NCBI GenBank assembly: GCA_017627765.1 | Contig: JAGAGD010000088.1 | Location: forward strand, 1-45,577 | Source of the DNA: Prevotella sp. | GTDB taxonomy: Bacteria > Bacteroidota > Bacteroidia > Bacteroidales > Bacteroidaceae | DNA: 45,577 nt | Reading direction: 5' to 3' | Shown here: positions 28,394-45,577 of the stretch, piece after piece | How the letters are laid out: the number at the start of each line of letters is the position of its first letter | Position numbering within the stretch: position 1 is the first letter of the stretch | Notes under the pieces: model-generated | Database searches by the model: none | What the model was told of the DNA's origin: nothing | Seen by the model: only the letters and a program-made list of their open reading frames with translations | Program-made: the position numbers and the translations under genes

Positions 28394-28503
28394 GAAAGGT
28401 GTCCTTTCGCGATGCGAAACGTGGCATATCGCACTGCGATATGTGGCATATTGCAGTGTCAAAGGTGCCCTTTCACACTGCGAAAGATGCCCTTTGACTT
28501 TTT
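28394..28503 (+). repeat. five tandem 22-bp dyad units (copy A)
   Basis: Units start at 28394, 28416, 28438, 28460 and 28482, with exact 22-bp spacing. Each is a 15-bp dyad-like core (unit 1 GAAAGGTGTCCTTTC, unit 3 GATATGTGGCATATT, unit 5 GAAAGATGCCCTTTG) and a 7-bp spacer that varies around GCACTGC (GCGATGC, GCACTGC, GCAGTGT, ACACTGC). Substitutions in one arm are partly mirrored in the other. Confidence 0.9.
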
Positions 28504-28734
28504 TAACAGTTATGAGTTTTACGACGAAACGTATAATGTCTTGATATTGAACAATTTACTAAAAACAGCAAGAAATCGCAAAATACTCGCATATTTTGCA
28601 ACTTCTTTTTGCTTGGTCGAAAATTTTTAAGTTATGAAGGGGGTTGTTAATCAATTTTTTACCCAACTCGCCTCAATTTTTTGCAAGTTTATCTCTCAGG
28701 GAAATGTGGAGACCGAAAACTGCTTTCAGATTGA

Positions 28735-28770
28735 AAGAACTTTAACGGGAACGTTAACGTTAACTTTAAC
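28735..28770 (+). repeat. hexamer array NNNAAC (copy A)
   Basis: Six contiguous hexamers: AAGAAC, TTTAAC, GGGAAC, GTTAAC, GTTAAC, TTTAAC. Read on the other strand they are GTT-NNN units like the arrays at 30061-30147 and 45188-45235. Confidence 0.85.
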
Positions 28771-28784
28771 TGTCAACTAAAACA

Positions 28785-28848
28785 ACTATGCATTATGCAC
28801 TACGAACTATGCACCGTCAAAGACTATGCATTATGCACTACGAACTAT
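28785..28848. repeat. 26-bp direct repeat, two copies
   Basis: A perfect 26-bp sequence (beginning ACTATGCATTATGCAC) occurs at 28785-28810 and 28823-28848, 38 bp apart. It directly follows repeat element A and precedes the promoter at 28911. Confidence 0.85.
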
Positions 28849-28910
28849 ACTAAGCTTGTCAACTTGATGACTAATCTGTCAATATTATCTGAATTTTCGT
28901 ATAACTTTTG

Positions 28911-28918
28911 TAACTTTG
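28911..28918 (+). promoter_or_regulatory. -7 box for the unknown gene at 28964
   Basis: TAACTTTG followed by CAG fits the Bacteroidota -7 consensus; the -33 region is T-rich. The ATG is 45 bp downstream. Confidence 0.65.
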
Positions 28919-28963
28919 CAGACCACTTATTTGATGGTATGATAATTGTTAGGAAATAAGAAC

Positions 28964-29494
28964 ATGGAACAAACATTTGAAAAAGGAATAAGAAAAGACC
29001 TCCATCAGTATCTGCTGAGTAGGGGAGAGGTTGACGAAAGACTGCCTGAGTGTCCTGATGTGGAAGGTAAATGGGAGAATATAGCTCAGGCTTATGCCAT
29101 TGACGGAATAAGAGAGTTCAACGAATACCCTACGGTATCGCTCGGATGGATGATGTATATAGGTATGGCTGTTGCGCGGTTTTGGGATGCTGAATGGGAG
29201 ATTTACTCAAAGGTGGAAAACCTCTATGCCTATATGCGCGACAAGCGTGGCTACGACAGCATGGACGAATACATCCGACAGGATGTGTTGCTGCTCGGAG
29301 GAGAAGACTATGAAGCGATTGAAAAACTTACTGGCGAGTGTGCAGCGCGAGTATATAGCTCGCTACGGCATCAGCATATTGAGCCAGGAACGAAGGAAGC
29401 ATTTAATGCCTATATTGTCTGTCTGCATCAACTCTATTTGATGGGGGCTGCCGTACAACTGAACCGCATGGGCTATCACATGACGAAAATGTAG
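28964..29494 (+). CDS. conserved cytoplasmic protein of unknown function
   Basis: A 176-residue protein without signal peptide or membrane segment. I start it at the ATG at 28964; an upstream in-frame TTG at 28946 is a poor alternative. The sequence is largely helical, rich in acidic and aromatic residues, with a distinctive Y-P-T-V-S-L-G-W-M-M-Y-I-G-M-A-V-A block (about 47-63) and W-E-I-Y-S-K-V-E-N-L-Y. I have an impression of similar unnamed proteins in Bacteroides but cannot name a family. Neighbours (NUDIX hydrolase, convergent) do not reveal its role. Upstream lie a promoter, a 26-bp direct repeat and repeat element A. Coding is supported by the codon pattern and the promoter. Confidence 0.8.
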   Translation: MEQTFEKGIRKDLHQYLLSRGEVDERLPECPDVEGKWENIAQAYAIDGIREFNEYPTVSLGWMMYIGMAVARFWDAEWEIYSKVENLYAYMRDKRGYDSMDEYIRQDVLLLGGEDYEAIEKLTGECAARVYSSLRHQHIEPGTKEAFNAYIVCLHQLYLMGAAVQLNRMGYHMTKM

Positions 29495-29586
29495 ATGCAG
29501 TCGTAACGGACAGCACCTTCAAGATAATATTTTCATGTCTTTATATCTTTTGTGCCAGACCCTTGCTGCAAGGCATTTTGCTAAAC

Positions 29587-30021
29587 TTAGAAGAGGAATT
29601 TAGCTCTCTTAATGGCTTCTTTTATAATGTCAGAGTGGTCGAATGCTAACTCTGGAAGTCTTTTTATATCGTGCCATTCGGCTTTAGAAGCATCGTCGCC
29701 ACCTGCAACCTCAACGGCTTTGTCGATTACTGCAAAGAACGCTATTGTAACAACACGTTCTCGCGGGTCTCTGTCCACACGCGAGAATGCACCTATCTGA
29801 TTCAGTTTGTTAAGTCGCAGTCCTGTTTCTTCCTCCAGTTCGCGGACAACAGCCTCTTCGGCTGTTTCGTCTATATTCATGAAACCGCCAGGAAATGCCC
29901 AACAACCCTTGCAAGGCTCGTTCTTTCTCTCTATCAGCAGGACTTTCGTTCTGCCTTCTTCTCTAGCAAAGACGATAGCATCTACTGTTAGTGCTGGGTG
30001 TGGATATTTATATGTATACAT
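29587..30021 (-). CDS. NUDIX hydrolase
   Basis: A 144-residue cytoplasmic pyrophosphohydrolase. The Nudix box is complete: G-G-F-M-N-I-D-E-T-A-E-E-A followed by R-E-L-E-E-E-T-G-L. The N-terminus (Y-K-Y-P-H-P-A-L-T-V-D-A-I-V-F) resembles the ADP-ribose pyrophosphatase/NrtR-like N-terminal Nudix type, but no DNA-binding extension is present, so it is an enzyme, not a regulator. I chose the ATG at 30021 (M-Y-T-Y-K-Y-P) over that at 30039. The substrate is unknown; ADP-sugars or oxidised nucleotides are possible. Upstream is an unusual leader with a hexamer array and two tandem promoter-like repeats. Confidence 0.9.
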   Translation of the reverse strand: MYTYKYPHPALTVDAIVFAREEGRTKVLLIERKNEPCKGCWAFPGGFMNIDETAEEAVVRELEEETGLRLNKLNQIGAFSRVDRDPRERVVTIAFFAVIDKAVEVAGGDDASKAEWHDIKRLPELAFDHSDIIKEAIKRAKFLF

Positions 30022-30060
30022 GAGTAAACAAGTTGACAAGCTTAATATAGTTCAGTTTTT

Positions 30061-30147
30061 GTTAAAGTTAAAGTTCTCATAACTTAACACTCTAAAATAG
30101 TTCCCGTTATCGTTAGCGTTAACGTTAAAGTTCCCGTTCCTGTTATT
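30061..30147 (-). repeat. hexamer array GTTNNN upstream of the NUDIX gene
   Basis: Plus-strand hexamers GTTAAA, GTTAAA, GTTCTC (30061-30078), a 21-bp gap, then eight contiguous units GTTCCC, GTTATC, GTTAGC, GTTAAC, GTTAAA, GTTCCC, GTTCCT, GTTATT (30100-30147). The same hexamers occur in repeat elements A and B, but here without the 22-bp dyad array. Confidence 0.85.
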
Positions 30148-30187
30148 ATGACTCATAACCTTAATCATGCTAAATGCTTTCTTGGTG

Positions 30188-30349
30188 CAAAGTTACGGAA
30201 AAACGAGCGAAATGTAAAAGAGAAACTTGTTTTTCTTTTCATTTCCGAGTGCTGAGTAAGTTCGGTGCAGCCAAAGTTACGGAAAAACGAGCGAAATGTA
30301 AAAGATAAACTTGCTTTTCTTCTTATTTCCGAGTGCTGAGTAGGTTCGT
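30188..30349 (-). repeat. 84-bp-period tandem repeat carrying duplicated -7 boxes
   Basis: Copies at 30188-30265 and 30272-30349 are nearly identical over ~78 bp. Each contains, on the minus strand, TAACTTTG at its downstream end (30195-30188 and 30279-30272), with a T-run about 20 bp upstream. They may act as two tandem promoters for the NUDIX gene. No protein is supported here despite a 65-codon open frame, which only mirrors the repeat. Confidence 0.8.
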
Positions 30350-30400
30350 GTATAGTTATCAAAAAAATGGATATATCAGAAATTGTTAGTCTTTATGTTA

Positions 30401-30429
30401 TTGTCTTTCAAAAAAAACTCTTACATTTG
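30401..30429 (+). promoter_or_regulatory. promoter of the thymidine kinase operon
   Basis: TTG (30401-30403) and TACATTTG (30422-30429) followed by CAG, 18 bp apart. Start codon about 77 bp downstream. Confidence 0.65.
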
Positions 30430-30505
30430 CAGCACATTATTAAGTTTAAGCAACGACAGTAACATTTTACGGTTTATGCTTTGAGAACTAAAAACTAATT
30501 GACAG

Positions 30506-31099
30506 ATGAACAACCAGAATATAGGGGAATTTCAGCGACCAGGCAGAATAGAAGTAGTGTGCGGATCAATGTTTTCGGGAAAGACCGAGGAACTAATAAG
30601 ACGCATGAAGCGCGCTAAGTTTGCAAGGCAGAATGTGGAAATTTACAAACCTGCTATAGATACACGCTATTCAGAAGAAGATGTTGTGAGCCACGACCGC
30701 CATTCCATCACGTGTACGCCTGTTGACTCTTCTTCCTCAATTCTTCTTCTTTCTTCCGAAGTTGAAGTTGTAGGCATAGACGAAGCGCAGTTCTTCGACG
30801 ATGGACTTGTTGACGTCTGCAATGAATTGGCAAATAGAGGTGTGCGTGTCATAGTGGCAGGACTCGACATGGACTTCAAAGGAATCCCTTTCGGACCGAT
30901 GCCAGCACTATGTGCCATTGCCGACGAAGTGACCAAAGTGCACGCCATCTGTGTTCGCTGCGGATCATTAGCCTATGTTAGCCACAGGCTCGTAAATAAC
31001 GACCGCCGCGTACTGCTTGGCGAGGTTGATGAGTATGAGCCGCTCTGTCGCGACTGCTATCAGAAAGCATTGCGCGAAGCAGAAGAAAACAACAAGTAA
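30506..31099 (+). CDS. tdk: thymidine kinase
   Basis: A 197-residue type II (TK1-like) thymidine kinase, phosphorylating thymidine to dTMP in pyrimidine salvage. The P-loop [11 protein letters not shown] is near residue 21, the Walker-B-like [10 protein letters not shown] near 88-97 with the catalytic Glu, and the zinc-binding C-V-R-C (about 151-154) and C-R-D-C (about 185-188) pairs are complete. The lasso region ([10 protein letters not shown]) is present. The next gene starts 21 bp downstream, so the two are one operon. Two nucleobase permeases follow within 5 kb. Confidence 0.97.
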
Positions 31100-31120
31100 C
31101 AATAAATACCTATATAATAT

Positions 31121-32239
31121 ATGATAGAACAAAAAATTACATTCGATAGTTTTATACGTTGGCTGGTGACTGCGCTCATCATTGGAGGCGTGCTATATTT
31201 CATAAACTATCTAAGCAGCGTATTGCTTCCGTTTGCCATAGGATGGCTTTTTGCATATTTGCTCTATCCTTTAGTATGTTTCGTTCAGTATAAGATGCGA
31301 GTGAAATATCGCTTTCCGTCTATTGTCATAACGCTTATATTCGTTATTGTTGTTATAGGCGGAGTGGTTTATCTCATCATCCCGCCATTCATAGAAGAGT
31401 TTAACAAACTTGGATTGGTTATCAACAAGTATGTGAATGAAACAACCCATGTTTCTGATATTCCTTCAGCCATACAGCAGTGGATAAGCAACAACCAGAA
31501 CGAGATAGAGAAGTTCTTCAAGAGCAAAGACTTCTCCGATGCAATAAAGACTGCAATGCCAAAGGTGTTTTCGTTCTTAGGTCAGACGGCAAGCATCATC
31601 ATAAGCATCATTGCTTCGGCAATCACATTGCTTTATATGTTCTTCATACTCATGGACTATGAATATCTGACAGAAAACTGGATAAGGATTTTCCCGAAGA
31701 AAAGTCGCCCGTTTTGGAACGAGTTGATGGGAGACGTAAAGCGCGAGCTTAACAACTATATTCGAGGTCAAGGACTTGTCGCTCTTACTATGGGAGTGCT
31801 TTTCTGCATAGGCTTTTCAATCATCGGTTTCCCTATGGCAATCGGTTTGGGAATACTCATCGGAATAATGGACCTTGTGCCATATCTGCATACGCTTGCA
31901 CTCATACCGACTGCATTCCTCGCACTGCTTAAGGCTGCTGACACGGGTCAGAACTTCTGGATAATATTCGGAATGGCCGTTGCCGTCTTCTGCATAGTTC
32001 AGGTAATAATAGATATGTTCGTAACACCGAAGATCATGGGAAAAGCAATGAATCTGAACCCAGCCATTCTGCTTCTTTCTCTGTCGGTATGGGGAGCACT
32101 GTTAGGTTTCATCGGACTTATCATTGCCCTGCCGCTTACCACCATTCTGATAGCATATTACCAACGCTATATTACAAAAGAAACCGTCGTGAATGCCGAC
32201 CTGCCTCATGTGGAAATGGAAGAGCAAGATCGCGAATAA
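31121..32239 (+). CDS. AI-2E/PerM-family membrane transporter
   Basis: A 372-residue inner-membrane protein with about eight hydrophobic segments arranged as in the AI-2E (PerM/YdiK) family: two or three helices at the N-terminus (20-90), a polar extracytoplasmic stretch (90-145), then helices from 155 to the C-terminal region including G-L-G-I-L-I-G-I-M-D-L-V-P-Y-L and P-K-I-M-G-K-A-M-N-L-N-P. These two blocks are family signatures. Members export autoinducer-2, ions or unknown solutes; this one cannot be assigned. It is cotranscribed with thymidine kinase (21 bp) and ends before the tRNA promoter. Confidence 0.9.
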   Translation: MIEQKITFDSFIRWLVTALIIGGVLYFINYLSSVLLPFAIGWLFAYLLYPLVCFVQYKMRVKYRFPSIVITLIFVIVVIGGVVYLIIPPFIEEFNKLGLVINKYVNETTHVSDIPSAIQQWISNNQNEIEKFFKSKDFSDAIKTAMPKVFSFLGQTASIIISIIASAITLLYMFFILMDYEYLTENWIRIFPKKSRPFWNELMGDVKRELNNYIRGQGLVALTMGVLFCIGFSIIGFPMAIGLGILIGIMDLVPYLHTLALIPTAFLALLKAADTGQNFWIIFGMAVAVFCIVQVIIDMFVTPKIMGKAMNLNPAILLLSLSVWGALLGFIGLIIALPLTTILIAYYQRYITKETVVNADLPHVEMEEQDRE

Positions 32240-32314
32240 AGCAACAATATAACCAAAGGGTAATACTGTTTTTAACGAATATTGCATAAAAACACAAGAA
32301 AAGTGCAAAAAAAT

Positions 32315-32345
32315 TTTGTGGTGTAAAAAAATAGTCTTACCTTTG
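32315..32345 (+). promoter_or_regulatory. promoter of tRNA-Lys
   Basis: TTTG (32315-32318) and TACCTTTG (32338-32345) are 19 bp apart, an ideal match. The tRNA begins 23 bp after the -7 box. Confidence 0.85.
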
Positions 32346-32367
32346 CACCGCTTTAATAAACAACGGA

Positions 32368-32440
32368 GATCCGCTAGCTCAGTTGGTAGAGCACAACACT
32401 TTTAATGTTGGGGTCTTGGGTTCGAGCCCCAAGCGGATCA
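32368..32440 (+). tRNA. tRNA-Lys (anticodon UUU)
   Basis: A complete 73-nt cloverleaf. The acceptor stem GATCCGC pairs with GCGGATC, the D arm has GCTC/GAGC with AGTTGGTA, the anticodon stem CAACA/TGTTG encloses CTTTTAA, and the T arm TTGGG/CCCAA holds TTCGAGC. The discriminator is A. CCA is not encoded, so it depends on a CCA-adding enzyme such as the one at 16844. Confidence 0.98.
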
Positions 32441-32453
32441 CAATCTAAAGCCC

Positions 32454-32489
32454 AATCCCCTGAAACTCATGAGTTTCAGGGGATTTTTG
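32454..32489 (+). terminator. intrinsic terminator of tRNA-Lys
   Basis: A perfect stem (ATCCCCTGAAACTC with GAGTTTCAGGGGAT) directly followed by TTTTTGTTTTT, 14 bp after the tRNA end. Confidence 0.92.
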
Positions 32490-32811
32490 TTTTTGGCATA
32501 TAGCCGTTTTTCCCTTTTTTTATGTGTTTTTTTATCAAATGTTTCCACCACTTGCTTAAAAGGTGTAAACACTTATCACAAAAAGGAAAGATTGCTTTGA
32601 AAAATATGTTTTTATAAATTAAAATTTAAAATAATTAAGAGTTATTTCTTTTTACTTAATATTTTACATTAACTTTGCAGAGAATTGAAAATTTAGGACC
32701 ATAGCGATTAAGTCTTGAGTTTTGAATATTCAGAATATTATGAGTCTGAAATTGATTAATCAAACTGGATGTATAGGCAGGATTTTTTAATTTTTAAAAG
32801 TTAGTGATATT
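32490..32811. other. intergenic region upstream of the NCS2 permease gene
   Basis: About 320 AT-rich bases with a -7-like box (TAACTTTG, 32670-32677) and a leader of about 130 nt before the permease ATG. I looked for a purine-riboswitch-like three-way junction in the leader and cannot support one by eye. Confidence 0.55.
32670..32677 (+). promoter_or_regulatory. -7 box for the NCS2 permease gene
   Basis: TAACTTTG followed by CAG; the -33 position is a T-run. Fits the phylum consensus. Confidence 0.65.
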
Positions 32812-34137
32812 ATGAAGAGTACAAAACAGTTGTTTCTAAAAGCGTTGGGATTTGACGAGAAACGTCATTCCATCAGAACAGAGTTGTTGGCAGGATTGAC
32901 TACATTCTTGACAATGAGTTATATTCTGGCTGTTAATCCATTGATTTTAGGTGAGACGGGCATGGATAAAGGGGCTGTGTTCTCAGCCACAGTCATTGCT
33001 GCGGCTGCGGCTACTATTGTGATGGCTTTCTATGCTAAGATGCCTTTTGCTCTGGCTTCGGGCATGGGTCTTAATGCTTTTTTTGCCTATACGCTGGTAA
33101 TTGCTATGGGCTACACCTGGCAGGAGGCTATTGCTGCTGTTCTGCTTGAAGGTATTATCTTCATCTTGCTTACTATTTTCAAAGTGAGAGAAGCAATAGT
33201 CAATGCTATTCCGCTCAATCTGCGTTATGCAATTTCCGCAGGTATAGGATTATTCATTGCCTATATCGGGCTGAAGAATGGAGGCATAATCGTTAGCAGT
33301 GAGGCTACAGTTACTACGCTTGGCACTTGGAATGCTACTTCGCTTTTGGCAATGGCAGGTGTGCTGATTGGTGCTGTGCTGATGGCTCTGAAGGTTCGTG
33401 GTGCGCTTTTCTATACTATTATAGGTATGACAATAATTGGTATTCCTATCGGCGTTACTCATATTCCAGAAGGATTCTCACTCGTAAGTCTGCCTTCTTC
33501 AATAGAGCCTGTTGCACTGAAGTTTGATTTCGGCAGATTCATTTCTTTAGACGTTGAATACTATATTGTTGTGTTCACACTGCTTTTCATGGACTTGTTT
33601 GATACTCTAGGTACACTTATCGGTGCTTCTACAAGTGCTGGTATGGCTGACAAGAACGGTCGTATTCATGGACTAAACAAGGCATTGATGGCTGATGCTG
33701 TCGGAACAACAGTTGGTGCGCTTGTCGGAACTTCAACAGTTACAACATACGTGGAAAGTACAACAGGTATTGCTGCTGGCGGTCGTACAGGTCTCACATC
33801 ATTCACAGTTGCTGCTCTCTTCTTTGTAGCACTGTTTTTCTCTCCACTCTTCCTTGTCATTCCTTCAGCAGCAACAACGAGTGCTCTCGTCATAGTGGGA
33901 GTGCTTATGACTCAGACTATCATGAAGATTGACTTCAATGATATAACTGAAGCTGTGCCTAGTTTCATCACTATTGTTATGATGCCTTTCACGGCAAGCA
34001 TTTCTGAAGGTATCGTATTGGGAATGTTGTCGTATGTTTTAATCAAGGTTTGTGCAGGTAAGGGCAAGAACCTGTCTGTTGTCATGTATATTCTTGCAGC
34101 CTTCTTTGTCATGAAGTATATTGCACCTATGCTATAA
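32812..34137 (+). CDS. NCS2-family purine permease (AzgA/PbuG-like)
   Basis: A 441-residue inner-membrane transporter with 12-14 predicted helices, of the AzgA-like branch of NCS2 that takes up adenine, guanine or hypoxanthine by proton symport. Marks are R-T-E-L-L-A-G-L-T-T-F-L-T-M-S-Y-I at the N-terminus, A-L-A-S-G-M-G-L-N-A-F-F-A-Y near residue 82, F-L/M-D-L-F-D-T-L-G-T-L-I-G near 260, and G-T-S-T-V-T-T-Y-V-E-S-T-T-G-I-A-A-G-G-R near 305, all standard in this branch. Length is normal. It has its own promoter, and the DUF5020 and uracil permease genes follow in the same direction after 72 bp. Confidence 0.95.
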   Translation: MKSTKQLFLKALGFDEKRHSIRTELLAGLTTFLTMSYILAVNPLILGETGMDKGAVFSATVIAAAAATIVMAFYAKMPFALASGMGLNAFFAYTLVIAMGYTWQEAIAAVLLEGIIFILLTIFKVREAIVNAIPLNLRYAISAGIGLFIAYIGLKNGGIIVSSEATVTTLGTWNATSLLAMAGVLIGAVLMALKVRGALFYTIIGMTIIGIPIGVTHIPEGFSLVSLPSSIEPVALKFDFGRFISLDVEYYIVVFTLLFMDLFDTLGTLIGASTSAGMADKNGRIHGLNKALMADAVGTTVGALVGTSTVTTYVESTTGIAAGGRTGLTSFTVAALFFVALFFSPLFLVIPSAATTSALVIVGVLMTQTIMKIDFNDITEAVPSFITIVMMPFTASISEGIVLGMLSYVLIKVCAGKGKNLSVVMYILAAFFVMKYIAPML

Positions 34138-34209
34138 TTCAGGATTTGCAAGCGTTCAACTTCTGAAGATTAAAAGTGAAATTCATAACTAAACGCAAAC
34201 AATATTATT

Positions 34210-34944
34210 ATGAAAAAGAATTTATTTTTAATGTTATTCGCCTTTTTTGGCTTAGCTGCAACAGCTCAGAACGTGCAGTTGCATTACGATCTTGGTAAAG
34301 CAATGTATGATGACTTAGACGGTCGTCCTACTGTTACAACAACATTCGAGATGTTTAAACCCGACAAGTGGGGCTCAACATTTATGTTTACCGATATCGA
34401 CTACTATAAGGACGGTGTTGCTGGCGCATATTGGGAAATCTCTCGCGAATTTGCTTTGTCAAAAAACAAGCAGTGGGCTGCCCACGTTGAATACGACGGA
34501 GGTGCAACATCAATTAAGCATACGGCTATTGCCTCTCGTTTCCAGCATGCTTTCCTTGTAGGTGCTGCATGGAACTGGGCAAGCAAGGACTTCAGCAAGA
34601 CACTCTCATTGCAGGCTATGTATAAGTATTACTTCAAGGGAATGGGACGCGGTGCGTTCAACGGTTTCCAGCTGACAGGCGTTTGGGGCGATACTTTTGC
34701 AAATGGACTATGCACCTTTTCTGGATTTGTTGATTTATGGTATGACAAAGATGTAAACGGAAAACTCATCTTGTTGAGCGAGCCACAGTTCTGGTTCAAT
34801 CTCAATACTCTGAAAGGTATGAAAGATGTAAATCTGAGTGTTGGAACAGAGGTTGAGATAAGCAATAACTTCGTGTTCAACAACGTTGGCGCTAATAATA
34901 AGTTTTACGTAATTCCTACACTGGCATGCAAATGGACGTTCTAA
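34210..34944 (+). CDS. DUF5020 outer membrane protein (Tsx-like channel candidate)
   Basis: A 244-residue exported protein with signal peptide ending at A-T-A-Q (residue 20) and amphipathic beta strands throughout, ending in an aromatic residue (C-K-W-T-F), which is typical of small outer-membrane barrels. The sequence (L-H-Y-D-L-G, T-T-F-E-M-F-K-P-D-K-W-G-S-T-F, D-I-D-Y) fits DUF5020, a Bacteroidota family that resembles the nucleoside channel Tsx; this is recalled, not searched. Its end overlaps the start of the uracil permease gene by 19 bp, which implies translational coupling. With purine and uracil permeases on either side, a role as outer-membrane pore for nucleosides or nucleobases is a reasonable inference. 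Confidence 0.85.
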   Translation: MKKNLFLMLFAFFGLAATAQNVQLHYDLGKAMYDDLDGRPTVTTTFEMFKPDKWGSTFMFTDIDYYKDGVAGAYWEISREFALSKNKQWAAHVEYDGGATSIKHTAIASRFQHAFLVGAAWNWASKDFSKTLSLQAMYKYYFKGMGRGAFNGFQLTGVWGDTFANGLCTFSGFVDLWYDKDVNGKLILLSEPQFWFNLNTLKGMKDVNLSVGTEVEISNNFVFNNVGANNKFYVIPTLACKWTF

Positions 34945-38009: not shown

Positions 38010-39158
38010 TCAGTTTAATGGTTGGTCTAGTTTTCCTTCTGCATTAAGTTTCATGTCGTTGTTCTCTTTGTAGAGAGAATAGAATAACTCGGTATAAAGC
38101 TTTTGCGAAAGCAATTTGCTTACTACTTCTTCTGCTGTGTAAGTCATTCCGTTTATTCCCTCAGAATTTGTTGAAGTCAGTTTGTCCTCATTAGTTGTAC
38201 CGCCTGAAGTGATAATAACGCATGGCGATGTTATGTCGAGTGAGAAGTCATATTTGTTGCGGTCTTTCTCGCTTTTCTTGTTCTCGTTCTCTACTACAGC
38301 GTCAAGAACAGATTTGTCGCGAAACAACCATCTTGCACGCAAACCAATCTTTGCACCAATAGCTCTAAAGTAGTATGTGTCTTGATAGAGATGATAATCT
38401 GTCAGGACCTGACGATGGAACTCACCTTTGTCGTTGTAATAGCTTATCTCCAAGTCGGCTAAGTCGCTAATAACCTTGCGGTCTGCTATTTTAACGCTAT
38501 AAGTAACGTCGTATGCAATATTGCAAAGTGGGAAAGCACCCTCTTGCATGATTAGAAAATCGTTTTGTTTGCTTATTACTTCCCAGTAGAATTCAGTCTG
38601 CAAATTGTTTCTAATCAATCCTTCTACTATAGCCGCAGCAGTATATGACCTGTTGGTTATGCCTATTTCACGTTTCGATTTGAACATAGACTCAATCTTT
38701 GTGTCGTCGGTTTTGGTTGCAATGTATGGCGAAGTAATGTCAATACTGAAGTTGTATGTGTTGCGCTGGTCGGCAGGTTTCTCGTTTTCTCGCTCAACAA
38801 GTTTATCGAGTTGTGCCTTGTCGTGGAATAACCAGCGAGCCTTCAGACCTATTTTTGAACCTAAATGCTGCTCGAAGAAATATTTCTTACTCCAGTTGTC
38901 GCTGTTGATAGTGTCAATATGAAGTTCACCTTCAGGGTCGAAATACTGAATCTCAAGGTCGGCTATGTCGCTCAGCACCTTCGGGTCTGTTACTTTTACG
39001 GTATATGTTACGTCATAAGACTTATTTATCATTGACATCGGAGGTGTAGGGTTGTTTTTGTCTATATCGTCATCGCCACATGAAACGAAGCCGAATAAAA
39101 CTATTACAGACAAAATAAGAAGACAGGAACGAGTTAAAAGAAAGTCAGCTTTTTTCAT
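38010..39158 (-). CDS. lipoprotein with an internal tandem duplication, function unknown
   Basis: A 382-residue lipoprotein with lipobox C27 followed by G-D-D-D, suggesting surface exposure. It consists of two homologous halves of about 165 residues: Y-D-V-T-Y-T-V-K-V (from ~46) against Y-D-V-T-Y-S-V-K-I (from ~217), each followed by D-L-E-I-x-Y, G-x-K-I-G-L-K/R-A-R-W-L-F, N-x-Y-x-F-S-I/L-D-I-T-S-P, and a T-Y/S-Y-T-A helix near the end of the unit. I do not recognise the domain. It looks like a beta-sandwich followed by a helix. It has its own promoter (39193-39200) and terminator, so it is a one-gene unit, divergent from the nitroreductase gene. Confidence 0.85.
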   Translation of the reverse strand: MKKADFLLTRSCLLILSVIVLFGFVSCGDDDIDKNNPTPPMSMINKSYDVTYTVKVTDPKVLSDIADLEIQYFDPEGELHIDTINSDNWSKKYFFEQHLGSKIGLKARWLFHDKAQLDKLVERENEKPADQRNTYNFSIDITSPYIATKTDDTKIESMFKSKREIGITNRSYTAAAIVEGLIRNNLQTEFYWEVISKQNDFLIMQEGAFPLCNIAYDVTYSVKIADRKVISDLADLEISYYNDKGEFHRQVLTDYHLYQDTYYFRAIGAKIGLRARWLFRDKSVLDAVVENENKKSEKDRNKYDFSLDITSPCVIITSGGTTNEDKLTSTNSEGINGMTYTAEEVVSKLLSQKLYTELFYSLYKENNDMKLNAEGKLDQPLN

Positions 39159-39192
39159 GATGTTTATTTTTAATTATGCTTATAATTTGGCG

Positions 39193-39200
39193 CAAAAATA
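39193..39200 (-). promoter_or_regulatory. -7 box for the duplicated lipoprotein gene
   Basis: Minus-strand TATTTTTG followed by CG, 35 bp before the start codon. The opposite-strand promoter for the nitroreductase lies about 45 bp away. Confidence 0.6.
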
Positions 39201-39243
39201 CATAATTTTCAGATATAATGATAAATTGTTATCATTTTTTTAT

Positions 39244-39251
39244 TACTTTTG
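39244..39251 (+). promoter_or_regulatory. -7 box for the nitroreductase gene
   Basis: TACTTTTG followed by CC. Transcription from here would start near 39257, so the in-frame ATG at 39218 cannot be the start used. Confidence 0.6.
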
Positions 39252-39325
39252 CCAACAATTATGATAGTAATGCCTTAAATGAAACGATTATAAAGGCTAT
39301 TGCTAATAATTATGTAATCTTAAAA

Positions 39326-40072
39326 ATGAGAAACATGGATAGCATTAGGACTCGAAAGACTATACGCCGATATCAGAAAAAAGATATTGACGAAACACTT
39401 CTCAACCAGTTGCTCGAAGATGCCTGCCGCACGCAGACGATGGGAAATCTGCAGCTCTATAGCGTTATTGTTACGCGTGATGAAAAGATGAAGAAGCGTC
39501 TTGCGCCTGCACATTTCAATCAGCCAATGGTTACTGAGGCTCCTGTTGTTCTGACTATATGTGCTGATTTCAGACGAACCACCGACTGGTGTAATCAGCG
39601 CAATGCTTTGCCAGGATATGACAATTTCCTCTCTTTCATAAATGCTGCTTCTGATGCGCTGCTATATACGCAGACATTCTGTAATCTGGCAGAAGAGGCT
39701 GGGCTTGGTATCTGCTATCTTGGCACAACTGTCTATATGCCACAGGCTATTATTGAAACTCTTGAACTCCCAAAACTCGTAATGCCTGTTGCTACACTCA
39801 CTGTAGGCTGGCCTGACGAGGACCCGCAACAGACAGACCGTCTGCCTCTAAAAGGTATTATCCACGATGAAGTCTATCGCCAATATACGCCTTCACAGAT
39901 TGATGAGATATATGGTTACAAAGAAGAACTCCCCGAAAACAAGGAGTTTGTTCGTATAAACGAAAAGGAGACTTTAGCACAAGTTTTCACTGACTGCCGT
40001 TATACGCGCAGAGACAATGAGTCCATGTCTGAAGGACTGCTGAAAACTCTTAAGCAACAAGGTTTTTTATAG
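39326..40072 (+). CDS. nitroreductase-family flavoprotein
   Basis: A 248-residue cytoplasmic FMN-dependent oxidoreductase using NAD(P)H. The N-terminus has I-R-T-R-K-T-I-R-R-Y, the phosphate-binding arginine region for FMN; further on are C-R-T-Q-T-M-G-N-L-Q-L-Y-S (the FMN-contacting C/A-P-S-x-x-N equivalent), D-A-L-L-Y-T-Q-T-F-C-N-L-A-E-E-A-G-L-G-I-C-Y-L-G, and a C-terminal extension as in NfsA/Frp-type enzymes (L-T-V-G-W-P-D-E). I place the start at 39326 or 39335 (M-R-N-M-D-S-I); the longer form from 39218 begins upstream of the promoter box. The physiological substrate is unknown. The SIMPL gene follows after 94 bp. Confidence 0.9.
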   Translation: MRNMDSIRTRKTIRRYQKKDIDETLLNQLLEDACRTQTMGNLQLYSVIVTRDEKMKKRLAPAHFNQPMVTEAPVVLTICADFRRTTDWCNQRNALPGYDNFLSFINAASDALLYTQTFCNLAEEAGLGICYLGTTVYMPQAIIETLELPKLVMPVATLTVGWPDEDPQQTDRLPLKGIIHDEVYRQYTPSQIDEIYGYKEELPENKEFVRINEKETLAQVFTDCRYTRRDNESMSEGLLKTLKQQGFL

Positions 40073-40166
40073 TGCATAGTGCATTGTTGTTTCGGATTAA
40101 GGGATAACGATTAATTATTTTTCCTTGTCAATTAATAAACTCATAAACTAAAAAACTTAAACAGTA

Positions 40167-40871
40167 ATGAAAAACAATCAGATTAAAGCAGCGGCACTTA
40201 TTGCCATTGGTATCATTGTGTTGGGAATTTGCATCAAGTCGGGACTTGATAATTTCTCAGGAAAAGACCGAAAGGTTACGGTTAAGGGACTATCTGAAAA
40301 GGAAGTTGAGGCTGATAAGGTTACATGGCCTATCCAGACAAAGGAGATTGGAAATAATCTTCCAGAACTTTATACGAAGATTAACAATACTAATTCTGCC
40401 ATTAAGCGTTTTCTTTTGGCTAATGGAATTAAGGAGAATGAGATAAACGTCAATGCTCCTACCGTTATCGACTTGTCGGCTGAACGCTATAATACTCAGC
40501 CTGTTCCACAACGTTATAATATAACTTCAACTATTATTGTAACGTCAAATCAGGTTAAACTCGTGCGCAGCATCATTGCTAAGCAAGGTGAACTGTTGCA
40601 GCAGGGTATAGCCATTGTCGATGGTGGTTATGAAATGCCTATCAAGTATGACTATGTTGCATTCAAGAAAATGAAGCCAGAGATGATGGAGGAGGCTATT
40701 GCTAATGCAGAGCAGACCGCACAACAGTTTGCGAAGAATTCTCATAGCAAGATAGACAAGATTATCTCTGCCGATCAAGGACAGTTCTCTATCGACAACC
40801 GCGACGAAAATACTCCATATATTAAGAAGGTAAGAGTAGTTTCTACGGTTACTTATTCTTTGAAGAATTAA
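40167..40871 (+). CDS. SIMPL-domain (DUF541) envelope protein
   Basis: A 234-residue protein with a single N-terminal hydrophobic helix (about 8-27) acting as signal anchor or uncleaved signal, then a SIMPL domain: K-V-T-V-K-G-L-S-E-K-E-V-E-A-D at the start, a helix with S-A-I-K-R-F-L-L-A-N-G-I (paired with D/N-E-I-N-V), and N-A-E-Q-T-A-Q-Q-F-A-K towards the end. Family members (BP26/OMP28, SIMPL) are periplasmic or membrane-attached; their function is not well defined. Length is usual. It is in the same direction as the nitroreductase but with a 94-bp gap, so cotranscription is uncertain. Confidence 0.9.
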   Translation: MKNNQIKAAALIAIGIIVLGICIKSGLDNFSGKDRKVTVKGLSEKEVEADKVTWPIQTKEIGNNLPELYTKINNTNSAIKRFLLANGIKENEINVNAPTVIDLSAERYNTQPVPQRYNITSTIIVTSNQVKLVRSIIAKQGELLQQGIAIVDGGYEMPIKYDYVAFKKMKPEMMEEAIANAEQTAQQFAKNSHSKIDKIISADQGQFSIDNRDENTPYIKKVRVVSTVTYSLKN

Positions 40872-40901
40872 TCGTTGTTTAGGTAATATTGTAGGAGTTA
40901 G

Positions 40902-40945
40902 AGGAGTTAGGTGAACGAGAAACTAATTTCTTTAACTCCTTTTTT
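40902..40945. terminator. probable intrinsic terminator between the SIMPL and rmuC genes
   Basis: AGGAGTTA and TAACTCCT pair, followed by TTTTT on the plus strand. A second AGGAGTTA at 40893 allows an alternative pairing. Confidence 0.6.
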
Positions 40946-40980
40946 GTTGACTTAATTCCTTTAACCACCTATTATTATTT

Positions 40981-42324
40981 TTAGTTTAATTCCTTAATAT
41001 TTTCAGGTATTTCTTTTTTGGGATTGACTCCAAGTTGCTTCATGTTCTCAAGTCTTTTTATCACGTTTCCTTTGCCAGAGCTTAATTGGTTGCGGGCTTG
41101 CTCGAAGTGTGTACGCAGATTTTCAATGTCTTTATCCATCTTTACGAAAGTCTCTGCATAAGAAACAAACTTGTCGTAGAGGTCGCTCGACTGCCGCATT
41201 ATTTCCTCTACGTTTTTGTTCATGCGATAGTTCTGCCACATAGTGTGAGTCAGTTGTAGTGTCATGAGCAAGTTAGCAGGACTGATAATGATAATTTTCT
41301 TCTTGTAAGCATATTGAAGTATGCCAGGGTCTGTCTTTATTGCAGCGGCATAACCGCTTTCATAGGGTATGAACATCAGTACATAGCCAATGCTGTTGGG
41401 TACAATCTTTTCATAGTTCTTGTCAGTGAGTTCATCAATATGCTTTTTCACCGATGCTATATGCTCTTTCAGATGTTTCTCTCTTTCATCGTCGTTGCTG
41501 GTATTCAGTGCCTCTTGATACGCTGTTAGCGAAACTTTTGAGTCAATGATTATGCTTTCATCATTCGGAAACAAAACAACGGCATCTGGTCGCATTATTT
41601 TTCCTTCATTGTCTTTATATGTTGGCTGAATTAAGTATTGGTCGTCTTTTTTCAGACCGCAATTCTCTAATGTGCGTTCTAAAATCATTTCGCCCCAGTC
41701 GCCTTGCAGCTTTGAGTCGCCTTTCAGAGCCTGCGTCAGGTGTTCTGCACCTTGTCCGATGCGCTCAGTCTGCTCTTTCAGTTCGCGTACAGTCCGTTCC
41801 TGCACGTTATGCAGTTGTTTCATGGCTTCTTCGAAAGCAGTTTTTATCTCAGCCTTGTTTGCAGTATTGTCTCGGTTGCTGTCGTTTACTGCTTTCGAGA
41901 ATTCGTCCATCTTCTCTTTCAGCGGTTCGATGATTTTGTCAAGTCGCTCTTTGTCTGCATTGTTCAGTTCCTGTCGGGTATTTTTCATCATGTTCTCTGC
42001 CATGAGTTTCATTTCCTCTTGCAGTAGTTTGTTCTTTTGTTCGGTTTGCTTTTCTATTTCATTGCGCAGTTTTTCTGCGTGTTGCAGTTCTTCCTCAAGT
42101 TTTGTTTCAGCTACGGCACGCATACGGTCGCTTTCCGATTTCTCTTCGGTTAGTTTCTCTATTTTCCTGTTTAATTCGGCTGCAATCATTTTTTCTGATT
42201 GCGTGTGTTCTACTGACAGTTGGTGACGCAGTTCGCTTAGTTTCCTGATGCTATCTTGTTTCATCATAAGGAATGTTATGACGAATCCAATGATGATACC
42301 TATTATAATATATAATGCAATCAC
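40981..42324 (-). CDS. rmuC: DNA recombination protein RmuC
   Basis: A 447-residue protein: an N-terminal membrane helix (about 2-20), a long coiled coil (about 25-200, rich in E, K, L and R), and the RmuC domain of PD-(D/E)XK nuclease type (about 205-395). The domain has G-D-W-G-E-M-I-L-E, R-P-D-A-V-V-L-F and I-I-I-D-S-K-V-S-L, giving the D-x(n)-D-x-K metal site, and the G-Y-V-L-M-F-I-P block. RmuC limits inversions at short inverted repeats in E. coli, a possible link to the inverted repeats in this window that I only note. It is transcribed separately from MurF-Alr, 81 bp after its stop. Confidence 0.94.
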   Translation of the reverse strand: MIALYIIIGIIIGFVITFLMMKQDSIRKLSELRHQLSVEHTQSEKMIAAELNRKIEKLTEEKSESDRMRAVAETKLEEELQHAEKLRNEIEKQTEQKNKLLQEEMKLMAENMMKNTRQELNNADKERLDKIIEPLKEKMDEFSKAVNDSNRDNTANKAEIKTAFEEAMKQLHNVQERTVRELKEQTERIGQGAEHLTQALKGDSKLQGDWGEMILERTLENCGLKKDDQYLIQPTYKDNEGKIMRPDAVVLFPNDESIIIDSKVSLTAYQEALNTSNDDEREKHLKEHIASVKKHIDELTDKNYEKIVPNSIGYVLMFIPYESGYAAAIKTDPGILQYAYKKKIIIISPANLLMTLQLTHTMWQNYRMNKNVEEIMRQSSDLYDKFVSYAETFVKMDKDIENLRTHFEQARNQLSSGKGNVIKRLENMKQLGVNPKKEIPENIKELN

Positions 42325-42353
42325 GATTGTTGAGGTTTTTTTTATTTGGAGTT

Positions 42354-42397
42354 AAGGAGTTGGCAGAGACAAACCAATATTTCTCTGCTAACTCCTT
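42354..42397 (-). terminator. hairpin between the murF-alr and rmuC genes
   Basis: A 16-bp near-perfect stem (AAGGAGTTGGCAGAGA with TCTCTGCTAACTCCTT) just after the MurF-Alr stop. The T-run on the minus strand is weak, so efficiency is uncertain. Confidence 0.6.
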
Positions 42398-42405
42398 CTT
42401 TGTTT

Positions 42406-44916
42406 TTATGTGTGATAATAAACGCGCTTAACGCGGTTGCTCACTCCTGTCAGAATCTCGTATGGAATAGTATCTGTTGCGTCAGAGAGAACAGTTACTG
42501 GCAGGTTGTTGCCAAATATCTCTACGGTGTCACCCTCGTGGCAGTCTATTCCTGTTACGTCAATCATTGCCACATCCATGCAGATGTTGCCTACGTATGG
42601 AGCAGGTTTGCCGTTGACTAAGCAATAGCATTTGCCGCGACCGAGATGTCGGTTTAGTCCGTCGGCATAGCCTATTGGTATTGCTGCTATCACGCTATCG
42701 CGATTTAGTGTTCCTCTGCGGCTGTATCCAACAGTGTCTGTAGCCTTAACTGTCCTCATCTGAAGTATTGTTGTTTTCAGTGTACTGACGTTACTTAGCA
42801 GACGGTTGCCGCGTGGAGATATGCCATAGAGTCCGAGGCCAAGCCGGCACATATCCATCTGTCGTTCAGGAAAATGCTCTATGCCTGCCGAGTTGCAGAT
42901 GTGGCGCAGAATCTTATGGCTAAAGACTGATTGCAACCTGCTGCTTCCCTTTAAGAACAATTCATATTGGCTTGCCGAGAAATCGTCAAACTGGTCGTCG
43001 TCGGAACCTACGAAGTGTGAGAACACAGAGCGTGGAGTTACTGCGTGCTGCCGTTTCAGAGTGCTAATCAGTTCTTCAATGTCGTCAACAGGATGGAAAC
43101 CGAGTCGGTGCATTCCTGTATCCAGTTTCACATGGACAGGATATCCGCTTATTCCTTCGCGCTCGGCAGCCTCTATCAGAGCCTTGAGCAGTCTGAATGA
43201 ATAAACCTCTGGCTCAAGTCCGTAGTCGAAAAGTGTCTTGAAAGAGCTCATCTCAGGATTCATCACCATGATGTTGGCTGTTATTCCGTTGCGCCTCAGC
43301 GTAACACCTTCGTCGGCAACAGCCACAGCAAGATAGTCAACCTGATGGTCTTGCAGGGTCTTTGCCACTTCCGTTGCACCTGCACCGTAGGCATCTGCCT
43401 TAATCATGCAGACAAGTTTTGTTGAAGGATTTAAGAAAGAACGATAGTAGTTAAGGTTTTCAACTATAGCGTCGAGGTTTACTTCGAGAATCGTTTCGTG
43501 AACCTTCTTTACCAGTAAGTCTGTCAGTCGTTCAAAACCGAAGCGGCGTGCGCCTTTCAGCAGTACCACCTCGTCGCGTATCTGTCTTATCTCCTTGCTG
43601 CGTGCAAAAGCCTCGCTGGTAGCAAAGAAGTGCTTGTTCTGAGTAGAGAACAGGTGAGAATAAGCAGATATGTGCGGACCTATTCCTATGATTTTCTCAA
43701 CATTTTTCAGTTCTATAAGTTGAGCAACCTCACCGTAGAGGTCCTCGTCGGTCATTCCGCTTTGTTCTATGTCGCTTATTATCAGAGTGCGCTTCCTTCC
43801 GTTGTGGTCAGGTCGTCGGCTCATGAAGTCAAGTGCTATTTCGAGCGAATGAATATCTGAGTTGTAGGCATCGTTGATGAGAGTGCAACCATGCTGTCCT
43901 TCTTTCACTTCCAGCCGCATTGCCACTGGTTCAAGATGTGCCATTTCTCTAATGACAGTCTCGGTGTTGGCACCCCATAGCAGTGTGAAGCACAATGCTC
44001 CAACAGAGTTTTCTACTGAAGCATTGTCGATGAAAGGCAGGGTATAGCTCAGTTCCTCGCCTTTGTATCTGAATGACACCGTAGTAGAGTCGGGATGTTT
44101 CTCCACATTCATAACATAGAGTGTTGCCTTTTCGTTCTTCTGCGACCATGAGAACAACTTGCATTTGCATTGCTCTTTTACGGCAGTATTCACCGTGTCG
44201 TTGTCTTCGCAGTAGATAAGAGTGTCTACATTCTTGAAAAGTTTCAGTTTCTCTATCACCTTTTCGCGCTTTGTAGAGAAGTTTTCCTGATGTGCAACTC
44301 CCACATGAGTCAGCAGGCCTATGTTTGGCTGAATCATCTGTTCCAGTCGTTCCATCTCGCCTTTCTGGCTTATGCCTGCCTCAAAGACAGCCAGTTTTGT
44401 GCGCTCATCTATGTTCCATAGCGACAGAGGCACGCCTATCTGCGAATTGTAGCTTCGAGGTGAGCGTGTCGTTGCAACATCTTTCGACAGCAACTGGTAA
44501 ATCCATTCTTTCACAATAGTCTTGCCGTTGCTGCCCGTAATAGCCAAAACGGGAATGTTGAATGCTTCTCTGTGCTGTCGTGCTATCTGCCCCAGAGCCT
44601 TCAGCGTATTGTCAACAACGAGAAAGTTGGCATCTGAGTATTTCAGTTCTTGGTTATTTGAGTTCTTTATTCCCTGCTTTTCCGATATCCAACTGTCAGG
44701 CAGGGCAGAAACGACAAAGTTTCTCACTCCGCGTTGATACAAGTTGTCAATATATCTATGTCCGTCGTTGCGGTCAGTCTTCAGCGCAAAAAAGAGAGTC
44801 TCTTCTGGAAAACTCAGTGAACGGCTGTCTGTCAGCAGGCGGCTTATCCTTGCTTCAGTAGTGCCAAAGCGTTTAGCCCCAGCCATTTCAGCCAATTTCT
44901 CAATAGAATAGTCCAT
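42406..44916 (-). CDS. bifunctional UDP-MurNAc-tripeptide:D-Ala-D-Ala ligase / alanine racemase
   Basis: An 836-residue fusion of two consecutive peptidoglycan-precursor enzymes, an arrangement common in Bacteroidota. Residues 1 to about 455 are MurF-like: an N-terminal UDP-binding domain, the ATP loop A-I-T-G-S-N-G-K-T (about 126-134), the H-x-G-V-A-H-x-E-N-F block, and a C-terminal ligase domain with I-N-D-A-Y-N-S. From about 463 (H-E-T-I-L-E-V-N-L-D-A-I) the alanine racemase follows, with the PLP lysine K506 in M-I-K-A-D-A-Y-G-A-G and the second-base tyrosine region V-G-Y-S-R-R-G-T. Racemase supplies D-Ala; MurF adds the D-Ala-D-Ala dipeptide. Cytoplasmic. It has its own promoter and lies downstream of repeat element B. 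Confidence is very high. Confidence 0.96.
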   Translation of the reverse strand: MDYSIEKLAEMAGAKRFGTTEARISRLLTDSRSLSFPEETLFFALKTDRNDGHRYIDNLYQRGVRNFVVSALPDSWISEKQGIKNSNNQELKYSDANFLVVDNTLKALGQIARQHREAFNIPVLAITGSNGKTIVKEWIYQLLSKDVATTRSPRSYNSQIGVPLSLWNIDERTKLAVFEAGISQKGEMERLEQMIQPNIGLLTHVGVAHQENFSTKREKVIEKLKLFKNVDTLIYCEDNDTVNTAVKEQCKCKLFSWSQKNEKATLYVMNVEKHPDSTTVSFRYKGEELSYTLPFIDNASVENSVGALCFTLLWGANTETVIREMAHLEPVAMRLEVKEGQHGCTLINDAYNSDIHSLEIALDFMSRRPDHNGRKRTLIISDIEQSGMTDEDLYGEVAQLIELKNVEKIIGIGPHISAYSHLFSTQNKHFFATSEAFARSKEIRQIRDEVVLLKGARRFGFERLTDLLVKKVHETILEVNLDAIVENLNYYRSFLNPSTKLVCMIKADAYGAGATEVAKTLQDHQVDYLAVAVADEGVTLRRNGITANIMVMNPEMSSFKTLFDYGLEPEVYSFRLLKALIEAAEREGISGYPVHVKLDTGMHRLGFHPVDDIEELISTLKRQHAVTPRSVFSHFVGSDDDQFDDFSASQYELFLKGSSRLQSVFSHKILRHICNSAGIEHFPERQMDMCRLGLGLYGISPRGNRLLSNVSTLKTTILQMRTVKATDTVGYSRRGTLNRDSVIAAIPIGYADGLNRHLGRGKCYCLVNGKPAPYVGNICMDVAMIDVTGIDCHEGDTVEIFGNNLPVTVLSDATDTIPYEILTGVSNRVKRVYYHT

Positions 44917-44995
44917 GCTTGTTGCTCGATTTTTTAGAAAGTTTATTTTTTATGTAGGCATCATGCCCAAATGGCAGATGCTTATTCTTATGCCG

Positions 44996-45003
44996 CAAAA
45001 TTA
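44996..45003 (-). promoter_or_regulatory. -7 box for the murF-alr gene
   Basis: Minus-strand TAATTTTG followed by CGG, about 80 bp before the start codon. The -33 region is AT-rich but has no perfect TTTG at the right spacing. Confidence 0.55.
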
Positions 45004-45187
45004 CTCTTTTTATTTCAATCATAGCCTAAAAGACTCATTATTTTTTTATTACTTTTATGGTTTCATGATTTTTTTAGTTTTAAACTGTTGTTGTTCAAGT
45101 AGACAAGCCTAATTAGATGAAAGATTAAGGATAATGATTAATGACCAGTCAAAGTCCTCAACACTCATAAATCATAACTTATAACTA

Positions 45188-45235
45188 GTTAAAGTTAAAG
45201 TTCCCGTTCCCGTTAACGTTCCCGTTATCGTTCTT
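45188..45235 (-). repeat. hexamer array GTTNNN (copy B)
   Basis: Eight contiguous hexamers on the plus strand: GTTAAA, GTTAAA, GTTCCC, GTTCCC, GTTAAC, GTTCCC, GTTATC, GTTCTT. The polarity towards the downstream gene is the same as in copy A. Confidence 0.85.
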
Positions 45236-45467
45236 CCAATCTGAAAGCAGTTTTCCGTTTCTTTCCTTTACCGAGCGAAAAACTTGCAATTTTCGGAGCC
45301 GAGTTGGGTAAAAAATTGATTAACTAAACCTGCACATAACTTAAAAATTTACGACCGAGCAAAAAGAAGCTGCAAAATATGCGAGTATTTTGCGGTTTCT
45401 TGTCGTTTTTAGTAAATCGTTCAATATCAAGGCATTATACGTTTCGCCTCAGAACTCATAAGTGTTA

Positions 45468-45577
45468 AAAAAGTCAAAGGGCATCTTTCGCAGTGTGAAA
45501 GGGCACCTTTGGCACTGCAATATGCCACATATCGCACTGCGATATGCCACGTTTCGCATCGCGAAAGGACACCTTTC
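45468..45577 (-). repeat. five tandem 22-bp dyad units (copy B)
   Basis: Unit boundaries at 45468, 45490, 45512, 45534 and 45556 are the exact mirror of copy A. Only isolated bases differ, for instance GCAGTGC instead of GCACTGC in one spacer (read in the orientation of copy A). Unit 1 ends at the last base of the window. Confidence 0.9.

Follow-up and report, generated by a model that had tools for sequence, protein, structure and literature searches.

A multicopy palindrome-array element in the intergenic spacers of a Prevotella genome, with related array designs in other members of the genus

A non-coding repeat with a modal length of 528 bp is present in 95-129 copies in the 2.48 Mb genome of this Prevotella. 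It has sharp palindromic ends and a central array that is its best-conserved part. The array design is found elsewhere in the genus, compensatory changes occur in the stems of one relative, and copies keep a minimum distance from each other. The reading that we favor, with confidence and doubt in about equal measure, is that of a non-autonomous, REP/BIME/MITE-like element specific to this species, with a hairpin array that functions as a dispersed site on the chromosome.

Anatomy and copy number of the element

The window, that is, the whole stretch of 45,577 nucleotides that was analyzed, contains two copies in opposite orientation. The inverted pair reported in the preliminary description is real, with arms at 28394-28636 and 45335-45577 (243 nt, 94%) and a second stretch at 28646-28797 and 45173-45324 (152 nt, 74%). 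The unit had been given as about 380 bp starting at 28394, but alignment of the flanks of many copies (35 left sides and 71 right sides) shows that copy A begins upstream of that position. The features are as follows:

28220-28737, plus strand: copy A, whole element, 518 bp, delimited by aligning the flanks of 12 and 13 copies
28220-28245, plus strand: left end, an imperfect terminal palindrome CTTTCAATCTGAAAG... that resembles the inverted right end
28220-28383, plus strand: leader, mean pairwise identity 0.80 (27 spanning copies)
28384-28508, no strand: near-invariant core, made of an A-tract, a five-box array of 22-bp period and a T-tract
28395, 28417, 28439, 28461 and 28483 (span 28395-28495), no strand: five palindromic boxes of 13 bp with 9-bp spacers, read from the sequence
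28509-28737, plus strand: tail, identity 0.84 for 28521-28640 and 0.65 for 28641-28738
28570-28607, no strand: another inverted repeat, within the tail, with 17 pairs formed on the minus strand and then a T-rich stretch
28720-28737, plus strand: right end CTGCTTTCAGATTGAAAG, from flank alignments
28738-28770, plus strand: NNNAAC hexamer array, flank rather than element, adjoining 27 of the 71 right ends and 2 of the 35 left ends
45233-45577, minus strand: copy B, array and tail, its leader lying beyond the contig and window end

Both ends were located in 18 of 27 two-sided copies, which measure 518-540 bp. They are imperfect inverted palindromes, CTTACAAACTGTAAC... on the left and ...CAGATTGAAAG on the right (the latter CTTTCAATCTGAAAG when inverted), so the earlier view that the element lacks IS-like ends was wrong or incomplete. 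Past the right end identity drops to 0.34, and the hexamer array, once counted as fixed architecture, lies outside this sharp boundary. The left-end pattern has 66 matches in the genome at up to 2 mismatches (control 0). Six matches with no adjacent leader hit were examined and proved to be three copies at contig ends, two solitary ends and one probable chance match; this set leaves out at least two others, on C60 and C120, both at contig ends.

Pairwise identity is highest, at 0.94, in 28384-28520, and the 22-bp period of the boxes was also reported by a tandem repeat finder. Whichever strand is folded, the array forms a single long hairpin (28390-28505, folded as RNA, has z -6.3 on the plus strand and -7.4 on the minus strand). 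The A-tract immediately precedes box 1 in 46 of the 48 own copies that have this stretch, while the T-tract belongs to the search marker and its presence in 79 of 79 marker copies is by construction. The inverted repeat at 28570-28607 is probably the 15-bp dyad noted previously. The non-coding status of copy A was upheld, given that no ORF of at least 90 aa overlaps 28220-28737; across the genome, an ORF of 103-147 aa overlaps 4 of 79 copies. In the window only a tRNA-Lys reached the Rfam gathering threshold, and membership of the element in a known RNA family was rejected.

The sequence had been seen as a pair. A genome-wide search with the marker gives 79 sites, 76 of them free of mismatches, and one with the leader gives 95, each against a control of 0. 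This copy number excludes a local duplication confined to these two sites as the origin of the pair. On their leader side, 44 of the 79 marker copies have a contig edge no more than 400 nt away, a practical difficulty that the element would explain. Copy B is among these copies, being truncated just before its array by the contig end, which is also the window end (G000:C57:1-45577). The assembly, 88% complete, is broken at the element and may lack very short contigs.

The whole element was not seen in relatives: among 199 other genomes of the genus, 20 give short partial matches only, with 3 candidates scored per genome. None of 50,697 phage records or 72,556 plasmid records matched 28221-28740, and the idea of phage or plasmid cargo was rejected. 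The 19-base marker matches viral contigs 6 times, at one site each, and genome contigs 27 times, none of the latter titled Prevotella, in a search from which records close to the own genome may be missing. A mobile element would fit the sharp boundaries, the many copies within one species and the lack of the whole element in the relatives searched.

Related arrays in the genus

The array design is matched at least once in 53 of 299 genus genomes, the own genome included, with a single match in 17 of the 53; at least 10 matches occur in 25 of the 299, and the maximum is 258 in one genome (5 control hits in all). The design returns in versions that differ from species to species.

In the relative G078, compensatory changes link box 1 with box 2 (z 4.0) and box 3 with box 4 (z 5.5) in 67 four-box arrays (0 of 3000 shuffles each), indicating that hairpins are maintained. 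Boxes 1 and 4 are weakly complementary (z 1.8, P 0.04; z 2.7 when one kind of wobble is allowed). Boxes 2-3, 1-3 and 2-4 have no compensation in the 67 arrays, and there is no excess identity between boxes. An earlier test on 21 arrays had given P values of 0.036 (1-2), 0.013 (3-4) and 0.03 (2-4), the last of these signals being gone at 67 arrays. Inside single palindromes of G078 the two arms show no covariation (53 hits from the 100 of 258 matches listed, one hit being taken from most overlapping pairs). This speaks against an RNA hairpin inside a single box and, taken by itself, would point to recognition of the DNA as a duplex.

In a second relative, G084, one complementary pair of boxes is kept in 34 of 36 elements despite changed box order and orientation. 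A strand polarity suspected for these arrays was not upheld, the strands being mixed. An array site is shared between L033 (G028) and L039 (G044), with 82% identity over 3 kb, which means that not every array moves quickly. The arrays of G078 have no homogeneous leader or tail, yet they are regularly spaced. Gene-linked sites in common with G078 were not found: 12 of 104 neighboring proteins match in 387 kb of G078, at 26-91% identity and hence not all as orthologues, and none lies within 400 bp of an array, compared with 27% of 267 ORFs.

Spacing, gene context and competing explanations

Copies avoid each other in the own genome and in G078, while those of G084 are placed nearly at random. 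Gaps between 44 G078 arrays called at a low threshold have a CV of 0.37, where arrays placed at random in intergenic DNA would give 0.83-0.84; at a higher threshold, 41 arrays give 0.45 against a simulated 0.83, the array-calling matrix having been trained on the same sequence to which it was applied. A second G078 set of 51 arrays, from 20 windows picked around known hits, has 5 gaps below 3.5 kb versus 13.9 simulated. The density in G078 is one array per ~9 kb. In the own genome the smallest of 52 measured gaps is 7.8 kb, set against an exponential null and not against intergenic placement. The CV for G084 is 0.75. The preliminary description had left the choice between a mobile, a regulatory and a chromosome-organizing repeat; this framing is partly supported, given that the ends and copy number fit a mobile element and the spacing agrees with a constraint at the level of the chromosome or with target immunity. 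Even spacing in a mobile-looking repeat is unusual, and leads to two testable hypotheses, target immunity of a putative transposition system or a role in chromosome structure.

Under the favored reading, an enzyme supplied in trans and acting on the palindromic ends or hairpins would have copied the element around the chromosome. The hairpin array would be the part under constraint, a dispersed chromosomal site comparable to BIMEs, and may act as DNA (cruciform, single-strand hairpin or protein-bound dyads) and not as a gene terminator. Either target immunity or a selection for dispersed sites would account for the spacing. No target-site duplication was seen in the 18 two-ended copies (mean match 1.17 versus 1.33 in shuffled flanks), and no partner transposase was found in a search that covered the Y1 family only. 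The own genome, 88% complete, has no Y1 (IS200-like) transposase among the 14 of 33 candidates scored, and an IS200/RAYT partner is thus not supported. Of the 11 genomes richest in array hits, five carry Y1 (G065, G053, G004, G317 and G297) and six do not (own, G078, G084, G060, G125 and G012), with a background of 155 in 299. The missing target-site duplication and partner transposase count against the favored reading, as do the near-random spacing in G084, the non-covarying arms in G078, the site shared by G028 and G044, the 24 of 92 G078 arrays that ORF calling did not assign to a spacer, and the 4 of 79 own copies with an overlapping ORF.

The strongest competitor, which we hold to be clearly less probable, is a MITE that is purely selfish and does nothing for the cell, its spacing due to transposase target immunity and its array conservation due to recent spread and conversion between copies. 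It accommodates the sharp ends with inverted terminal palindromes, the smallest gap of 7.8 kb, the fact that neither the whole element in relatives nor its marker in other Prevotella records was seen, and the lack of any sign of sites common with G078 (12 neighboring genes with a match). Against it stand the uneven conservation, which peaks in the array, the regular spacing of G078 arrays that have no homogeneous leader or tail, and again the missing target-site duplication and transposase. A bolder proposal, which we regard as speculative, is a chromosome-wide system of near-evenly spaced hairpin arrays in Prevotella genomes, bound by a putative protein, that would partition or anchor the nucleoid, with a different array sequence kept in each species and the 528-bp element re-seeding sites in this one. 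The nucleoid proteins of the phylum are poorly known. If the favored reading is right, intergenic hairpin arrays of a class hitherto without a name would lie at non-random distances along the chromosomes in part of the genus Prevotella.

The box compensation could instead come from quasipalindrome template switching or small inversions and not from selection, the arrays being relics. Either process could yield reordered boxes with a retained complementary pair, as in the 34 of 36 otherwise alike G084 elements. Nonetheless, the pairing is specific to boxes 1-2 and 3-4 and nil for 2-3, and the regular spacing is left unexplained, which makes this explanation unlikely.

A little less probable still is that the array is a bidirectional transcription terminator, or an mRNA-stabilizing hairpin, between A-tract and T-tract. 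The hairpin on both strands and the A-tract ahead of box 1 would suit it, as would two terminator-like matches in copy A (28408-28394 and 28607-28570, both on the minus strand; 0.6 expected from shuffles). However, mapping of the copies relative to genes, called by a crude in-house ORF rule, shows no preference for gene ends. In 25 of 34 own copies the gene on the left is directed away, as is the one on the right in 40 of 70; of 25 flanking pairs, 10 are divergent and 4 convergent. Placement in G078 likewise shows no preference for gene ends and no avoidance of divergent spacers (20 of 68 placed arrays versus 53 of 209 spacers), and none of 44 G078 arrays is followed within 15 nt by five consecutive T. 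Finally, that unrelated intergenic repeats accreted side by side without forming a unit is scarcely credible, since two ends common to 18 copies and the alignment of 35 left and 71 right sides outweigh the other repeat adjoining the left end in several copies and the two solitary left ends.

Comparison with known systems

REP, BIME and REPIN sequences are high-copy intergenic palindromes with paired hairpins; REP/REPIN carry a GTAG or CGTC tag at the foot and are served by RAYT, a transposase of Y1 type, while BIMEs are bound by gyrase, Pol I or IHF. The Prevotella element is likewise high-copy, intergenic and made of hairpin-forming palindromes, but its boxes are phased at 22 bp within a larger element with its own ends, and no RAYT-type transposase accompanies it among the candidates scored. 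Paired hairpins are seen through the compensation in G078, while the own array folds as one long hairpin and not as a pair.

The general traits of MITEs are present, namely no coding capacity, a length below ~1 kb, high copy number and terminal inverted repeats, here imperfect. As in prokaryotic MITEs, going by the available sections of the source, the element is short, non-coding and intergenic with inverted ends; it differs in having no target-site duplication in 18 copies, no parent element found and its best conservation at the center instead of at the termini (PMC10969869).

No description of this repeat was found in the literature searched, which leaves its absence unproven. The earlier statement that no described family has this structure holds only in part, given that BrickBuilt of Porphyromonas gingivalis, a MITE that encloses a minisatellite, is clearly analogous in architecture although its ends differ (PMC4596501, available sections). 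BrickBuilt has 19 copies in ATCC 33277 versus 95-129 here, IS5-like ends GAGACCTTTGCA (Table 2) versus CTTACAAACTG, and 1 to 22.8 array units versus five boxes; the same sections of PMC4596501 do not report the spacing bias and hairpin compensation that are both seen in the G078 arrays. Common to the two elements, as far as those sections describe BrickBuilt, are a non-coding tandem array set between a leader and a tail, with a period of 23 nt in BrickBuilt and 22 bp in Prevotella, inverted-repeat ends, intergenic location, a limited host range and no uniform target-site duplication (PMC4596501).

Copies, ends and conservation of the element

Self-comparison of the window confirmed the inverted pair reported in the preliminary description, whose arms measure 243 nt (94%) and 152 nt (74%). 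Alignment of the copies with their flanks places the start of the element 174 bp upstream of the one first proposed, which is not borne out. The window is one entire contig (G000:C57:1-45577), and copy B reaches its end just before the array. Repeats noted in the window are the following:

28220-28737 (+), copy A, with leader, five-box array and tail
45233-45577 (-), copy B, cut by the contig end
28842-28885 and 30010-30053, 44-bp inverted repeat right of copy A, 82% complementary, arms 1.1 kb apart
30188-30348, two 77-bp copies in tandem, 94% identical at a spacing of 84, that start with CAAAGTTACGG

In the genome to which the window belongs, a 377-base query gave a strong match in all 40 candidates scored, out of 257. 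The 20-base core marker has 79 sites (76 without mismatch) and the leader pattern, with up to three mismatches, has 95, the controls giving 0 in both cases. Leader and marker occur together at 45 places, the leader alone at 50 and the marker alone at 34. Because many of the single-sided places come from one copy split between contig ends, the genome-wide count that had been called for is given as a range, and the true copy number is between 95 and 129. A contig edge lies within 400 nt of 44 of the 79 marker copies on the leader side and of 8 on the tail side and, therefore, the repeat limits the assembly.

Both ends were identified in 18 of the 27 copies that are long enough on both sides, with a length of 518-540 bp (modal 528). 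In the other 9, an end, usually the right one, could not be recognised. Each end forms an imperfect palindrome, and the two are alike in inverted orientation; no target duplication was found in the 18 two-ended copies (mean match 1.17 versus 1.33 for shuffled sequence). Mean pairwise identity among the 27 spanning copies is 0.80 in the leader, 0.94 in the array and its edges, 0.84 and 0.65 in the tail and 0.34 in the right flank. Of the 71 right ends and 35 left ends, only 27 and 2, respectively, have a hexamer array beside them, and such arrays do not belong to the fixed architecture in which they had been included.

In several copies (L248, L251 and L252; own-genome copies L100, L126 and L129), the left end of the element is immediately preceded by another intergenic repeat, whose final stretch resembles CTTAGGGGAGCAATT. 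Solitary left ends, with approximately 26 bp of the element followed by unrelated sequence, are seen at L249 (G000:C99 near 898) and L250 (G000:C100 near 902).

Occurrence in relatives and spacing

In the search of relatives proposed earlier, 20 of 199 other genomes of the genus gave matches to the element, all short and partial (three candidates scored per genome). A second search gave matches in 5 of 60 relatives, own genome included. Of 299 genus genomes, 53 (the own one among them) have at least one match to the array motif with up to two mismatches; 17 have a single match and 25 have ten or more, and the reversed control gave 5 matches in all. Counting both strands, there are 266 matches in the own genome, 258 in G078, 208 in G065 and 194 in G053.

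Array versions vary between genomes. Those of G078 are mostly four-box arrays with little common flank, while the G084 version (contigs of 1.97 and 0.71 Mb) is a homogeneous element of approximately 190 bp, found at 46 places in 400 kb. It has 12 matching sites on two Prevotella nigrescens records, and in each record the best of these overlaps no annotated feature. For an efflux protein of the window, the best plasmid-collection match among those listed is also from a Prevotella (64.7%). The two results back the assignment to this genus. One array occupies the same place in two species (L033 in G028, L039 in G044; 82% over 3 kb) and, therefore, some sites persist between species. Genome G059 has its own interspersed repeat (L036, L055) of approximately 640 bp, 83% identical between two copies, which has the motif GGTCGAAAATTTTTAAGTT in common with the tail of the present element.

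In 387 kb of G078, the gaps between 44 arrays range from 3.9 to 20 kb with a CV of 0.37, versus mean CVs of 0.84 (per spacer) and 0.83 (per base) for random placement in called spacers, for which the lowest values in 5000 runs were 0.53 and 0.51. No gap is below 3.5 kb, versus about 11 expected. A stricter array call agrees (CV 0.45 versus 0.83), as does a second set of windows picked around known matches (5 gaps below 3.5 kb versus 13.9). The 52 gaps of the own genome range from 7.8 to 63 kb (CV 0.57), where an exponential null predicts 17 below 7.5 kb. In G084, the CV is 0.75 and gaps go down to 1.4 kb; even spacing is therefore not universal. Target immunity or selection may be the source of the spacing.

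The hairpin and its neighbouring genes

The array of copy A consists of five 13-bp boxes in 22-bp steps, with an A-tract on one side and a T-tract on the other; on both strands it folds into a single long hairpin, with z scores of -6.3 and -7.4. Complementarity between the variable box centres was assessed in 67 G078 arrays with four boxes: it exceeds shuffles for boxes 1-2 (z 4.0) and 3-4 (z 5.5), with 0 of 3000 shuffles in each case, is weak for boxes 1-4 (z 1.8, P 0.04) and does not exceed shuffles for boxes 2-3, 1-3 and 2-4. There is no excess identity between boxes. No covariation of the Y-R arms inside one palindrome was found in 53 G078 matches. Of 36 full G084 elements, 34 retain one pair of complementary boxes within the first three despite reordering (a-b-a' in 19, a-a'-b in 9, b'-a'-b in 5, and three others). 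Selection is the simplest reading of this complementarity, which could also be restored by template switching. Otherwise alike G084 elements (L221-L240) differ in box order and orientation, as if by small inversions or template switches.

With ORFs of at least 90 aa taken as neighbours, 25 of 34 left genes and 40 of 70 right genes of the own copies are directed outwards from the element; the 25 pairs with both genes visible comprise 10 divergent, 11 co-directional and 4 convergent ones. An ORF of 103-147 aa overlaps the element in 4 of 79 copies, and one right neighbour overlaps its approximate end by 7 bases. The hairpin of the own element, standing between an A-tract and a T-tract, could terminate transcription, but a role as gene terminator in general is opposed by G078, where placement is orientation-neutral (20 arrays in divergent and 9 in convergent spacers, 20 and 19 in co-directional ones, and 24 left unplaced) and T-runs follow 0 of 44 arrays.

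Proposed dispersal and relation to known repeats

The data fit an element that would be dispersed by an enzyme supplied in trans and whose constrained part would be the hairpin array. The search for a Y1 transposase in the own genome was negative for the 14 candidates scored out of 33, and the Y1 family showed no association with arrays across genus genomes. In working principle, we take REP/BIME elements to be the nearest. The nearest described architecture is BrickBuilt of P. gingivalis, which differs from the present element in its ends and copy number (PMC4596501). The element is classed as neither BrickBuilt nor REP/BIME, and is a variant within bacterial interspersed palindromic repeats in general.
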